DNA of 64,000 nucleotides from an uncultured Bacteroidales bacterium (lineage in GTDB: Bacteria > Bacteroidota > Bacteroidia > Bacteroidales > UBA11471), in contig CANQDQ010000001.1 of the NCBI GenBank assembly GCA_947593515.1, forward strand, positions 124,001 through 188,000, written 5' to 3'. Both the position numbers and the translations under genes were made by a program. The stretch's first letter is position 1. Every line of letters begins with the position of its first letter. Below, one piece after another: positions 42,611-48,443 of the stretch. The notes beneath the pieces were generated by a model. It made no database searches, had not been told where the DNA came from, and was given only the letters and a program-made list of their open reading frames with translations.

Positions 42611-43594
42611 TTAAGGAATGTTTCGCAACAGCGTGTGGCGCAAAAGTATTTCACCCAACAGGAGCAGCAGGGCGGCTATGCCCCACTTCTCGAAAAGTTC
42701 GTCTTTTTTGCTGAACTCCTGTACGACAAGTTTGGTCTTCTCCATTTTGTCGATTTCGGCAAAAATATTTTTCAGCACGTTCTTGCTGGTGGCGCGAAAA
42801 TATTGTCCGCCGGTCGTATCGGCGATTTTCTGCAACGTCGCTTCGTCGATGACCACCGGCTGGTTTTGATAGATGATGCCGTAAGGCGTCTGCACCGGAT
42901 AAGGGGCATTGCCTTGCGTACCCACGCCTATGGTATATACGCGAATGCCGAATGTCTCGGCTATCTGCGCGGCGGTTTCGGGGGTAACGTCGCCGGCATT
43001 GTTGGTACCGTCAGTCAGGAGGATTATCGTTTTCGACTTGGCGGGACCGTCTTTGATGCGGTTCACCGCCGTTGCCAATCCGTCGCCGATAGCCGTCATG
43101 TCGGCAATGATTCCGCACCGCACCTCTTTGAGCATATTGAGCAGGACGGCACGGTCGGTAGTCATGGGACAGAGTGTAAAACTCTCGCCGGCAAAAACGA
43201 CCAGTCCGATATTGTCGGTAGTGCGTCCGGCGATGAATTGCGAAGCGACGTCTTTGGCGGCTTCGATACGGTCGGGATTGAAATCGCGCGCCAGCATACT
43301 GCTCGAAACATCGAGGGCAATGACGATGTCGATGCCTTCGGTGGTCTGGCTGCTCCAATTGTCGGTCGATTGCGGACGCGCCAACACCACTATCAAACAG
43401 CCGGCTGCCGCCAGCCGCAGAGCGAAAAGCAGGTAACGAAGGTATTTTTTATAGCTGTTTCCGATACGGTCGAACGCATACGTGGAAGAGACCTGCAAGG
43501 TAGCCTCCGCGTTTTTGCGTTTCCACACATACCAGCCTATTGCCGGAATGAACAACAGAAACAGCCACAAATATGAAGGATTTGCAAAATTCAT
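42611..43594 (-). CDS. batA: BatA, VWA-domain membrane protein
   Basis: A 327-residue protein of the same plan as BatB. Transmembrane segments lie near 8-24, 55-73 and 305-322. The VWA domain has the MIDAS motif DVSSSML (about 93-99) and LLTDGTNNAG. The start codon overlaps the stop of the upstream gene (ATGA), so translation is coupled. BatA is the first named aerotolerance gene of the B. fragilis operon. Ligand unknown. Confidence 0.92.
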   Translation of the reverse strand: MNFANPSYLWLFLLFIPAIGWYVWKRKNAEATLQVSSTYAFDRIGNSYKKYLRYLLFALRLAAAGCLIVVLARPQSTDNWSSQTTEGIDIVIALDVSSSMLARDFNPDRIEAAKDVASQFIAGRTTDNIGLVVFAGESFTLCPMTTDRAVLLNMLKEVRCGIIADMTAIGDGLATAVNRIKDGPAKSKTIILLTDGTNNAGDVTPETAAQIAETFGIRVYTIGVGTQGNAPYPVQTPYGIIYQNQPVVIDEATLQKIADTTGGQYFRATSKNVLKNIFAEIDKMEKTKLVVQEFSKKDELFEKWGIAALLLLLGEILLRHTLLRNIP

Positions 43595-44688
43595 AGTCTG
43601 TTTTTGTTTGAAGGTCCGTATTTTTCAAAATCGTCTTCCGGCGACGATTTCGGCTGCGGCTCGCCGTCGGGCTGCCGGCTTTCCTCCGTCGGAATCTCGC
43701 CTGCCACCGGCACATTCTCTTGGGCGGGAGCCTGTTCCGGTTCGGGACGGGTACTCTCCACAAAGGCAACGGCATCGTGCATGACCGATTCGTTGTCTTC
43801 GGGCAGCGGGCGCATCTTGGCGAATTTCACAAAATCGGCAACTTCGAGAATCGCCCGTATCCGGCGGTCGTGTTCATGCCCCGCCTTGTCGGCACGCAGA
43901 TGTTCCAATATTTGGGCGGAAGTCATTTCCATAGCCTGTATGCCGAAACGTCCGTACAAATATTCCCGCAAAATGTCGATAAGCGCGGTATAATACTCTT
44001 TCTCCCGTCCCTCCTGCCAGAGTTTTTCTTCGCGCAAGCGCGACAGGGCAAGCAGGGCTTTCTCGTGGGGAGGCAGCAGCGTTTCCGGTTCCGTTTCGGG
44101 GAGTTTGCGTTCTTTCCACCATTTATATATCCCGAAAGCGATACCGCCGCCAACAAGCAGGACAGCCAGCAATATCCATACGAAAAGCGGTATGCTGTCC
44201 CACAAAATCATCAGCCACGACGAAGAGGGCTTGCGTATCGCTTTTATATCGAAAATCAAATTCGAGGTATCGACCTCCATCGGCAATATTTTGATACTGA
44301 GCGATTCGGTATAAAGGGTATCGGTGCCCATCAAATACTTGAACGGGGGTATATAAAAGAATCCCGAATCGAAAGAGGTTATAAGCAGACGGCGGTCGAT
44401 TTGCAACCGACCGTTGCCCAAATCCGACGTGTCGGGTCGGGAGACTTCGAGCACCTCGATGCCGGGCACGAGGGTTTCGGAGAAGGTGGGCAGGAGCCAC
44501 ACCTCCGCATCTTTATCCTGCGCCAGCTGCAAGCGAATGAGCGACTGCTCGCCCATCCACAAAACCGTCGAATCGATAGAGGCGTGTACCGAAACATCGG
44601 CAGCAAGGGCATTCGCCGAAAACATCGTCATCGACACGGCTGCTGCCAGTACGGCTCTGCACAATCGTTCACCTATCTTGTTTTTCAT
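43591..44688 (-). CDS. Bat-operon membrane protein with BatD-like N-terminal domain
   Basis: A 365-residue protein found between the DUF58 and batA genes, as in other Bacteroidota. It has a signal peptide (about 1-29). A periplasmic beta domain follows (VSVHASIDSTVLWMGEQSLI, which resembles the BatD Ig-like repeats), then a transmembrane segment (about 168-187). The cytoplasmic helical region contains ALLALSRLREEKLWQEGREK and YYTALIDILREYLYGRFG, a DUF4381-like pattern. The tail is Pro/Glu-rich. ATG at 44688 was preferred to the GTG two codons earlier. It probably carries signals between periplasmic and cytoplasmic Bat parts. Confidence 0.75.
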   Translation of the reverse strand: MKNKIGERLCRAVLAAAVSMTMFSANALAADVSVHASIDSTVLWMGEQSLIRLQLAQDKDAEVWLLPTFSETLVPGIEVLEVSRPDTSDLGNGRLQIDRRLLITSFDSGFFYIPPFKYLMGTDTLYTESLSIKILPMEVDTSNLIFDIKAIRKPSSSWLMILWDSIPLFVWILLAVLLVGGGIAFGIYKWWKERKLPETEPETLLPPHEKALLALSRLREEKLWQEGREKEYYTALIDILREYLYGRFGIQAMEMTSAQILEHLRADKAGHEHDRRIRAILEVADFVKFAKMRPLPEDNESVMHDAVAFVESTRPEPEQAPAQENVPVAGEIPTEESRQPDGEPQPKSSPEDDFEKYGPSNKNRL

Positions 44689-44702
44689 TTTCACACTTTC
44701 TT

Positions 44703-45572
44703 TTATGAATGCCGCTTGAAAAGATTCATCAGCGCCACGACGAAATCTTCATCGGTCGCCACCGAAGCCACATCGACACGGCTTTTGTGCAGCGCCTCGA
44801 TCATGCGCTGCTGCCGCTCGCTCCACCACGCGGCATAGCGTTCGCGCACCCGCCGCGAGGAGGTATCGACCCACACGTCGGAGCCTCGCTCGGCATCGAG
44901 CAGACGCACCAGTCCGGCATCGGGCAGAGCAGTCTCGCGCTTGTCATACACCTGCACCGCCACGATATCGTGCTGCCGGTTGGCAATGGTGAGCGCGTCG
45001 GAAAAAGCGTCGGGGGCGATGAAGTCGGATATGAGGAACGCCGTACAGCGTTTCTTTATGGCGTTGGTCATATAACGCAGCACCGTCGATAACGACGTGC
45101 CGGTGTGTTCGGGCGTAAACTCGATGAGTTCCCGAATGATGTAAAGCACGTGTTTGCGACCTTTTTTCGGAGGAATGAATTTTTCGATGCGGTCGGAAAA
45201 AAAGATGACGCCGATTTTATCGTTGTTCTGTATGGTGGAGAATGCCAGCGTGGCGGCAATCTCGGTAATCATTTCTTTCTTCATTTCGCCGACGGCGCCG
45301 AAGTTGCGGCTTGCCGACACATCGACCAGCAACATGACGGTAAGCTCGCGCTCCTCTTCAAAGACTTTGACGTAGGCATTCCGATAACGCGCGGTAACAT
45401 TCCAGTCGATGTCGCGCACATCGTCGCCGTACTGGTATTCCCGCACTTCGGAGAATGCCATACCCCGCCCTTTGAAAGCCGAATGGTATTGTCCGGCAAA
45501 AATATTCCGCGACAATCCGCGCGTCTTTATCTCTATGCGGCGGACTTTTTTCAGCAACTCGGTCGTTTCCAT
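44703..45572 (-). CDS. DUF58 / VWA-like protein of the Bat operon
   Basis: A 289-residue soluble protein with the DUF58 signature YQYGDDVRDIDWNVTARYR (about 47-65), followed by a degenerate VWA fold whose metal site reads LLVDVSASRNFG. DUF58 proteins pair with MoxR ATPases across bacteria. ATG at 45572 gives METTELLKKVRRIEIKTRGL, the usual start; the in-frame TTG two codons earlier is less likely. It lies 33 bases after the moxR-like gene and presumably presents clients or VWA partners to the ATPase. Confidence 0.9.
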   Translation of the reverse strand: METTELLKKVRRIEIKTRGLSRNIFAGQYHSAFKGRGMAFSEVREYQYGDDVRDIDWNVTARYRNAYVKVFEEERELTVMLLVDVSASRNFGAVGEMKKEMITEIAATLAFSTIQNNDKIGVIFFSDRIEKFIPPKKGRKHVLYIIRELIEFTPEHTGTSLSTVLRYMTNAIKKRCTAFLISDFIAPDAFSDALTIANRQHDIVAVQVYDKRETALPDAGLVRLLDAERGSDVWVDTSSRRVRERYAAWWSERQQRMIEALHKSRVDVASVATDEDFVVALMNLFKRHS

Positions 45573-45605
45573 ACGCAAAACTCGTTACAGCACAAGAATA
45601 TACGA

Positions 45606-46601
45606 TTAGGGTACTTCTACCTTGTTGAGTATCTCGCTGACGATTTCTTCGGCGGTGATGTTGTTGGCTTCGGCTTCGTAGCTGAGACCGATACGGTGCC
45701 GCATCACATCGTGGCATACGGCGCGCACGTCTTCGGGCACGACATACCCCCGCTGTTTGAGGAACGCATACGAGCGGGCTGCCAATGCCAGATTGATAGA
45801 GGCACGCGGCGATGCGCCGAAAGCTATCATGTTCTTCATTTCGCCAAGACCGTGCTCGTCGGGATAACGGGTGGCAAAGACGATATCGACGATATAGCGT
45901 TCTATCTTTTCATCGACATAGACCTGCTGCACGATTTTACGCGCTTCGACAATATCTTCGGTTTTGAGTACGGGTTTTATCTCTGCCCTTTCGCCGGCGA
46001 TGTTTTGCCGAATGATGAGTTTCTCCTCCTCTTTCTTGGGATAGTTGATGATGACTTTGAGGAGGAAACGATCGACTTGCGCTTCGGGCAGCGGATAGGT
46101 GCCTTCCTGCTCTATGGGGTTCTGGGTAGCCATTACGAGGAAAGGGTCGTCGAGTTTGTAGGTGTTCTCGCCGATGGTTACCTGCCGCTCCTGCATGGCT
46201 TCGAGCAAGGCGCTCTGCACTTTGGCGGGGGCGCGGTTTATTTCATCTGCCAATACGAAGTTGGCGAATACGGGACCTTTCTTTACCTGAAACTGCTCTT
46301 TTGCCTGACTGTACACCATCGTACCCACGACGTCGGCGGGGAGCAGGTCGGGCGTAAACTGTATGCGGTTGTACTTGGCGTCGATGAGCGATGCCAACGT
46401 TTTAATGGCAAGGGTCTTTGCCAATCCGGGCACACCTTCGAGCAAAATGTGTCCGTTGGAAAGCAGACCTATCATCAGCGAATCGACCAGATGCTTCTGC
46501 CCGACGATGACTTGGTCCATGCCCATCGTAATCATATTGACAAAAGAACTTTTGCTCGCAATCAGCTCGTTCAATTCCCGAATATCTACTGTCTGGCTCA
46601 T
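45606..46601 (-). CDS. MoxR-family AAA+ ATPase of the Bat operon
   Basis: A 331-residue AAA+ ATPase. Walker A is LLEGVPGLAKT (about 54-64), Walker B lies in VLADEINRAPAKVQSALLEA (about 117-136), sensor 1 is VMATQNPIEQEGTYPLPEAQ, and the C-terminal lid is helical. MoxR ATPases remodel or load metal onto proteins that carry VWA domains, matching the four downstream genes. It is the first gene of the operon and is preceded by an exact -7 box. Confidence 0.93.
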   Translation of the reverse strand: MSQTVDIRELNELIASKSSFVNMITMGMDQVIVGQKHLVDSLMIGLLSNGHILLEGVPGLAKTLAIKTLASLIDAKYNRIQFTPDLLPADVVGTMVYSQAKEQFQVKKGPVFANFVLADEINRAPAKVQSALLEAMQERQVTIGENTYKLDDPFLVMATQNPIEQEGTYPLPEAQVDRFLLKVIINYPKKEEEKLIIRQNIAGERAEIKPVLKTEDIVEARKIVQQVYVDEKIERYIVDIVFATRYPDEHGLGEMKNMIAFGASPRASINLALAARSYAFLKQRGYVVPEDVRAVCHDVMRHRIGLSYEAEANNITAEEIVSEILNKVEVP

Positions 46602-46707: not shown

Positions 46708-46751
46708 CTATTAAAAAAAACTAAGTCGTCTTTCTTGCGGAAAGACGACTT
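46708..46751 (-). terminator. Terminator after the HU-LysM gene
   Basis: On the minus strand AAGTCGTCTTTC pairs with GAAAGACGACTT across a 5-base loop and is followed by AG and then eight T. A classic intrinsic terminator. Confidence 0.9.
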
Positions 46752-46763
46752 GATTTTTTCGGG

Positions 46764-48026
46764 TTATTCGTATTTTTCTTTCAAACGGAGGGCAAGGTCT
46801 TGGGCTTTTTGCAAAGAAGCCTCGTCGTTTGCATCGATGCCGTATTTGCGGGCATCGGGTACAGCCAAATCGAAACCGACAGGTATGCGGTTGGGATTCG
46901 ATATGCGGGTTTTGTTTTCTTCGTAGATATATACCCAAAAATCCTTGTGCCCGTAGTATTTCAATGCCAACAAGGTGAGGCGCGAGCCTTTGCCCATGCG
47001 TTCCGTCGCCACCGGCGGGAGCGTCGACACATCGACATCGTCCGCAGGTGAAGTCGTTTCCGGTGTAGAAACAAGCGACTCGCCGGAATTGTTCTCGGGC
47101 AGCGGGAGCGTCGGCTGCGATTCGTCGCCGGCAGACGGCTCCGACGGGAAATAATACGTCCATACGTCGCGCATCGAAATGCCCTGCCGCTGCAACTGCC
47201 ATGCAGCACTGCACGTCAGAAGCAGCAATACCACCAACACGGCGCAAAGGGTGGAGAGCACGGGTCGGCGGCAGATTTTTTCCCAAAGGGTTTCAGCACT
47301 GTCGTCATCGTCGCTCTCGTCCTCGTCTTCATTTTCGACTGTAAGGGTCGGAGTCGCAACGGGCGTTTCCTCCTTCGGGGCTTCCGGTTCTTCGACGGGT
47401 GTTTCAGCAGGTTCCGAAACATCGACACGAGCGGTAACGACAGGAGTTTCTGCCGTCGCGGATTTCGTTTTTTCTTCTGCCTTTTGTTGCTGCTGTTCGG
47501 TGGTTTTCAATTTTTCTATCACCAAATCGGACAACGCATCAAGTTCTTTTTCAGAAAGTTTCGTTACCGAAGGGTCGGCTGCCGGCTGTTCCGCCGGCGC
47601 AGGAGCCTCGACCGGTTTATTTTCCGGCGCCGGCTGCGAGGGCATTTCATCTTCCGGCTCGTCGTCGGAAGCGTCGGATTCTTCCGGCATATCGAGAACA
47701 ACATCGTCTGGCAATACTTCGGGAACGAATGCGGAAAACGGGGCATTGACTGCCTCGCGCATCGACTTGTCGGGCGTGAACGAAAGTTTGTAGTGTCCGG
47801 GTATCTCCATCGGCTCGCCCGTATGGACATTGACACTGGTGCGGGCGTCCACCCATATCGAACGGAACTGCCCCAACCCGTTTATTTTCAAACTTTCACC
47901 TTGTACCAGCGTATCGGAGAGCAACGAGAAAAATTCTTTCAGAAACTGCTCCGCCTCTTTTTTTGTGGAGTCGCTTTTCCGGCTCAACTGGTCGGTCAAT
48001 TCGGACAATGATATTTTGGTGTTCAT
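46764..48026 (-). CDS. Membrane-anchored HU-LysM fusion protein
   Basis: A 420-residue fusion. Residues 1-95 are an HU/IHF-type DNA-binding domain (LKINGLGQFRSIWVDARTS, then HYKLSFTPDKSMREAVN). Residues 96-250 are a long linker rich in Pro, Glu, Asp and Ala with a short helix near 155-175. Residues 255-277 are a single transmembrane segment. Residues 343-391 resemble a LysM-type wall-binding domain (GSRLTLLALKYYGHKDFW, then NPNRIPVGFDLAVP). With the HU part in the cytoplasm the LysM part would lie in the periplasm. The start overlaps the stop of the upstream HU gene (ATGA). A tether between nucleoid and cell wall is an inference. Confidence 0.8.
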   Translation of the reverse strand: MNTKISLSELTDQLSRKSDSTKKEAEQFLKEFFSLLSDTLVQGESLKINGLGQFRSIWVDARTSVNVHTGEPMEIPGHYKLSFTPDKSMREAVNAPFSAFVPEVLPDDVVLDMPEESDASDDEPEDEMPSQPAPENKPVEAPAPAEQPAADPSVTKLSEKELDALSDLVIEKLKTTEQQQQKAEEKTKSATAETPVVTARVDVSEPAETPVEEPEAPKEETPVATPTLTVENEDEDESDDDDSAETLWEKICRRPVLSTLCAVLVVLLLLTCSAAWQLQRQGISMRDVWTYYFPSEPSAGDESQPTLPLPENNSGESLVSTPETTSPADDVDVSTLPPVATERMGKGSRLTLLALKYYGHKDFWVYIYEENKTRISNPNRIPVGFDLAVPDARKYGIDANDEASLQKAQDLALRLKEKYE

Positions 48027-48310
48027 CGTACGGGATTTTCTTTTATGCGATTTTTCAAAACGGCTCCGGGCTTAAATGTCAATATGATACGGGGCGGTAT
48101 AAGCATACGTTTCCCCGTTGCGGGATTGACGGAAATGCGTTCGAGCTTCTTGCGCGGCTCGAAAACGCCGAAGCCCTGTATCGAAACCGAATCCATAGAG
48201 ACGCTGCGCTCTTTGATGATTTGCAGCAATCCCGAATAAAAGGCATCAACGCTTTTCTTGTCTTTGCCCAACCGTTCTTGCAAAATCGAAAAAAATTGTT
48301 TATGCTCCAC
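48023..48310 (-). CDS. HU/IHF-family DNA-binding protein
   Basis: A 95-residue HU-like protein. The body region ISVNPATGKRMLIPPRIILT corresponds to the DNA-bending arm (NPATGK, then P), and FKPGAVLKNRI to the C-terminal helix. GTG at 48310 is taken as the start; a TTG two codons earlier (48316) is possible, and no ATG occurs before residue 40. The sequence AATTTTTG just upstream may be a weak -7 box. It is translationally coupled to the HU-LysM fusion, so the two may form heterodimers. Confidence 0.83.
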   Translation of the reverse strand: MEHKQFFSILQERLGKDKKSVDAFYSGLLQIIKERSVSMDSVSIQGFGVFEPRKKLERISVNPATGKRMLIPPRIILTFKPGAVLKNRIKENPVR

Positions 48311-48406
48311 TTGCAAAAATTTTTATTTTCAAGCGGCTATATTACGATTTTTTTTTGAGGTGGCAAAATTCCTTTCAAAAAAAGTCGAGAGAGGCGTCGC
48401 AATATC

Positions 48407-48443
48407 GAAAAAAAGCCCCGACGGGATTTGCGCCGTCGGGGCT
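48407..48443 (-). terminator. Terminator after rho
   Basis: On the minus strand AGCCCCGACGG pairs with CCGTCGGGGCT across an 8-base loop and is followed by seven T. It lies 20 bases past the rho stop codon. Confidence 0.9.

Follow-up and report, generated by a model that had tools for sequence, protein, structure and literature searches.

HU domain, transmembrane helix and LysM domain in one protein: a conserved two-gene unit of Bacteroidales with a possible role between nucleoid and cell wall

Introduction

Whether a bacterial chromosome can be connected to the cell wall through one polypeptide is the question raised by a gene in a 64,000 nt stretch (the window) of contig CANQDQ010000001.1 from an uncultured Bacteroidales bacterium. 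The encoded protein carries an HU/IHF-like domain, a transmembrane (TM) helix and a LysM-like domain in a single chain, and the original prediction, made from the letters of the window, saw in it a possible direct tether between nucleoid and peptidoglycan. No single protein is known to us that has been proven to connect the chromosome with peptidoglycan. In the body of literature searched, there was no paper on an HU-TM-LysM protein.

Gene order and domain composition

The HU genes lie on the minus strand, and the order in the direction of transcription is rho (ORF at 50386-48464), an intrinsic terminator (48414..48443, a consensus match with an 11-pair stem and T-tract), a small stand-alone basic HU/IHF gene (48023..48316), the HU-TM-LysM fusion gene (46764..48026), a two-way intrinsic terminator (46722..46752, a consensus match on both strands), a MoxR-type ATPase gene (ORF at 46601-45606, also minus strand) and further Bat/VWA-type genes. 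The small HU protein is 97 aa long when read from a TTG codon; an alternative GTG start at 48310 is the start found in relatives and coincides with the limit given in the original prediction. Its gene is directly upstream of that of the 420 aa fusion and the two ORFs overlap by ATGA, which bears out the translational coupling to a stand-alone HU gene that had been proposed. Given the terminators on either side, the HU pair resembles a bicistronic unit of its own. The MoxR ATPase and Bat/VWA-type genes downstream together occupy 42611-46601 on the minus strand.

Within the fusion protein the HU/IHF domain comprises residues 1-97 (47736..48026, minus strand as are all parts of the gene) and has a full-length beta-arm with Val instead of Pro at the tip. 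Pfam Bac_DNA_binding (PF00216) matches residues 8-94 with an E-value of 6e-22 (78.1 bits vs a cut-off of 22.4), Foldseek matches the domain to HU/IHF chains with E-values down to 7e-8, and the net charge of residues 1-95 is -1. There follow an acidic, disordered linker predicted to be cytoplasmic (residues 98-254, 47265..47735; AlphaFold pLDDT mostly below 50, with a helix at 159-182), a single transmembrane helix (255-277, 47196..47264; hydropathy 2.58, helix 255-280 in the model), a predicted periplasmic low-complexity spacer (278-339, 47010..47195; the family median is 69 residues), and a LysM domain (340-392, 46851..47009) with a C-terminal helix at 402-419. The AlphaFold model, with a mean pLDDT of 73.6, shows a confident HU domain (1-97), the membrane helix, a beta-alpha-alpha-beta LysM with the C-terminal helix, and disordered linkers. 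The domain limits first drawn from the sequence (1-95, 255-277 and 343-391) were right to within a few residues, and the HU/IHF, transmembrane and LysM identities hold up.

Conservation and distribution

The search for the same architecture in other Bacteroidota that the original prediction had called for gave, from 200 loci, a non-redundant set of 105 proteins in which HU precedes LysM, all sharing the order HU-TM-LysM. With so many relatives on independent contigs, a chance fusion or an assembly artefact is ruled out. The small HU gene is immediately upstream in 101 of the 105 (100 by automated search, plus L039), and the overlaps are mostly of 4, 8 or 11 bases. Among the remaining four, L041 and L131 have two HU domains in one chain, and the L028 and L096 genes begin near the end of the available sequence. 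At one further locus, L218, the fusion seems to be split into an HU ORF of 147 aa and a TM-LysM ORF of 196 aa, with a 4-base overlap and behind a small HU; this is either a real fission or a frameshift.

Many Bacteroidota from the gut and from the environment carry the two-gene unit. Among those with names are Coprobacter secundus, Barnesiella sp. An55, Bacteroides acidifaciens, B. faecichinchillae, B. ihuae, Parabacteroides faecalis and Dysgonomonas spp. The unit is present in no fewer than 17 families of Bacteroidales and, in another class, in a single family (f197). About 27 genomes of f197 hold a version that is full-length or nearly so, and the loci inspected there have a small HU upstream. 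Of 295 Bacteroidales genomes drawn evenly, 55 genomes in 17 families match the LysM profile strongly (E ≤2e-17). The unit is missing from most sampled Bacteroidales genomes, and the full HU-TM-LysM architecture was found above threshold in none of about 237 genomes of the same class outside the order; it is therefore not a general requirement.

The MoxR gene is directly downstream of the fusion in 67 of the 105 loci. This linkage, together with a predicted DNA-binding domain inside and a predicted wall-binding domain outside the membrane, would suit a one-component membrane-bound wall sensor, ToxR-like in principle, in which the HU pair would change the transcription of, e.g., the MoxR/Bat genes in response to a wall signal picked up by LysM. 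Such a regulator is improbable, the least probable of the readings considered: the sequence specificity of DNA binding by HU/IHF domains is low or moderate, the window has a terminator between fusion and MoxR, and the linkage is missing in 38 of the 105 loci and was not seen at the f197 loci examined. With linkage in 67 of 105 and an intervening terminator in the window, MoxR is also rejected as a fixed operon partner.

Membrane topology and the LysM domain

Hydropathy gives a single transmembrane segment in 104 of the 105 relatives. The 15 residues before it hold on average 3.9 Lys/Arg, as against 1.8 in the 15 after it; the N-terminal flank is the more basic in 87 relatives and the C-terminal flank in 10 (97 informative; sign test p 2e-16), and in the window protein the counts are 3 and 2. 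The fusion is without a signal peptide, its HU domain starting at residue 1. Positive-inside flanks and the lack of a signal peptide place HU inside and LysM outside the membrane.

Assignment of the LysM fold is weak for the single sequence and firm for the family. The window protein alone gives no match to Pfam LysM and a weak one (E 0.0034) to NCBIfam PRK11198, which is matched by 18 of 18 family members. A family profile (A2) built from 18 C-terminal regions finds solved LysM domains, among them those of Kbp (4e-11) and of Ecp6 (7e-10), a chitin-binding effector, as well as further LysM chains, and matches SafA and LytN weakly. This LysM subtype is found, too, in fusion with outer-membrane proteins of the OmpA family (L204, L206 and L207), in genomes that carry the HU-TM-LysM fusion as well; these proteins begin with a signal peptide-like N-terminus, contain barrel and OmpA domains, and end in a closely related LysM. 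Because it is fused to such exported proteins, the subtype belongs in the periplasm. An orientation with cytoplasmic HU and periplasmic LysM, as proposed at the outset, is thus supported both by the predicted N-in/C-out topology (87 of 97) and by the OmpA fusions.

A periplasmic LysM need not mean wall binding, since the closest PDB LysM by sequence is that of E. coli Kbp, a potassium-binding protein. LysM could bind some other ligand, ion or protein, as in Kbp, and the fusion would then be an envelope-anchored HU without a link to the wall. This is unlikely, if marginally less so than the wall sensor: the family profile also matches the chitin-oligomer-binding Ecp6 and, weakly, SafA and LytN, and the same subtype is found fused to OmpA-type wall-binding domains.

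The two HU subunits

The small HU matches Pfam Bac_DNA_binding (E 1.6e-19), has a net charge of +10 and keeps the motif NPATGKR; the best PDB matches of the HU subunits are IHF and HU. Eight loci (L041, L131, L201, L202, L203, L208, L210 and L211), from genomes that span at least four families, encode two HU domains, TM and LysM in one polypeptide, and no separate small HU was found at any of the eight. The double-HU region of L041 (residues 1-176) is modelled confidently, with a pTM of 0.78, and aligns over its length, yet loosely (TM-score about 0.5), with tandem HU-like chains, i.e. 8snb_1K and single-chain IHF 2iie. The best structural match of this tandem model (m2677925034f3) is 8snb_1K, a sea urchin doublet microtubule chain. 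The conserved gene pair and the fused double-HU polypeptides are strong circumstantial evidence, short of proof, that the fusion pairs with the small HU in an IHF-like heterodimer, and the HU heterodimers suggested in the original prediction gain support from them.

Alignment of both subunits to IHF-beta indicates that they would contribute unequally to DNA binding. In the Bacteroidales fused HU the position of the intercalating Pro is taken by Val/Ile in 94 of 104 and the arm-region charge averages +0.2; the small partner retains the Pro in 96 of 99, and the charge of its arm region is +6.6, comparable values being +7 for an ordinary HU of the same genome and +5 for IHF-beta. An intercalating Pro combined with a basic beta-arm is hence a property of the small partner and not of the Bacteroidales fused subunit. 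The arm is deleted in six aligned fusions (L012, L034, L037, L039, L081 and L096) and, by eye, likewise in L209 and L212; DNA binding may have been lost in these armless clades. The genomes of L012 and L209 have a partner that is no longer basic either; neither of their subunits resembles a DNA-binding protein, which leaves room for a protein-binding role. In f197 both subunits keep the Pro, and the fused HU mostly keeps a canonical NPQTGE arm.

If the pair binds DNA at all, the basic small partner probably does most of the binding. The Bacteroidales fused HU, near-neutral, without the Pro and armless in some lineages, is more likely to be mainly a docking subunit. The chromosome-wall tether first proposed is thus plausible and has support as to topology, domains and coupling, but the fused HU of the Bacteroidales type is probably not the main DNA-binding part, this domain being neutral to acidic, without Pro, and armless in several lineages.

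The same features could be taken further, with the HU pair as a membrane-bound docking platform for a protein rather than DNA, placed by LysM at wall sites such as the division septum. Heterodimer and LysM persist where the fused HU is acidic or neutral, has lost its Pro or, in several lineages, its arm; the double-HU model is nearest to the microtubule chain 8snb_1K, and a part in protein binding is assumed for the known eukaryotic HU relatives (CCDC81). Against such a platform, the partner keeps its basic charge and DNA-kinking Pro in nearly all Bacteroidales, and the fused HU of f197 its canonical NPQTGE arm. It is a doubtful alternative, if clearly the strongest of those weighed here.

Relation to known HU proteins

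The general plan of HU, TM helix and wall domain has already been described. HU-CCDC81_bac TM-SPOR proteins of Bacteroidetes (PF18174, PF18175 and PF05036) share with the fusion N-terminal HU-superfamily domains, one TM helix, a C-terminal periplasmic wall-binding domain and the bacterial order. Burroughs et al. in 2017 are said to have predicted a part for them in chromosome partition. The window fusion differs in the class of its HU, which is canonical PF00216 (6e-22) and not CCDC81-type (0.008), in having LysM and not SPOR, and in its dedicated, separate HU partner gene. Membership in the HU-CCDC81 family is rejected on 16.5 bits for bac_2 against a cut-off of 35, no bac_1 match and the C-terminal LysM. 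The same genome does encode an HU-CCDC81_bac_1 protein with a TM segment (L122; contig C4, ~142.7-143.6 kb); SPOR is not detectable in it with Pfam, and is above the Pfam cut-off in two of its Bacteroidales relatives (L277 and L278).

Among other relatives, HU-HIG (PF18291) of Bacteroidetes is likewise an HU-superfamily expansion and gives weak matches in 15 of 28 members; membership is rejected, the window protein scoring 16.8 bits against a curated cut-off of 26.2 and being without a HIG-type fusion partner. Kbp/YgaU, which has the LysM of PRK11198 and is the closest in LysM sequence, differs in its BON + LysM composition, without TM helix and without HU. IHF alpha/beta and HU heterodimers share two related subunits with the present pair, but here one subunit is membrane-anchored and has a degenerate DNA-binding arm.

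Proposed mechanism and significance

A wall-anchored HU heterodimer is the best, if unproven, reading of these data. The two genes would give an HU heterodimer of the IHF kind, obligate and fixed in the inner membrane. Contact with DNA would fall mostly to the small basic HU, with which the fused HU domain would dimerise, while the acidic linker and single membrane helix would anchor the pair. LysM would span the periplasm on some 70 flexible residues and bind glycan strands of the cell wall, and parts of the nucleoid would in this way be kept close to the wall. The parts and their order have good support; as a whole, this mechanism, drawn from sequence comparison and models, is evenly poised between being right and wrong.

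The model of an asymmetric pair, with a docking subunit that is anchored and a DNA-binding subunit that is soluble, is specific and can be checked. With the pair present in Bacteroides, Coprobacter, Barnesiella, Dysgonomonas and Parabacteroides, it can be tested in genetically tractable gut bacteria. It is possible, with slightly less confidence than in the mechanism itself, that a dedicated IHF-like heterodimer, one subunit of which spans the inner membrane and grips the wall, couples chromosome and peptidoglycan physically in two distant Bacteroidota lineages, beside a separate HU-CCDC81/SPOR protein whose task may be comparable. If true, this would bear on nucleoid placement and segregation in Bacteroidota.
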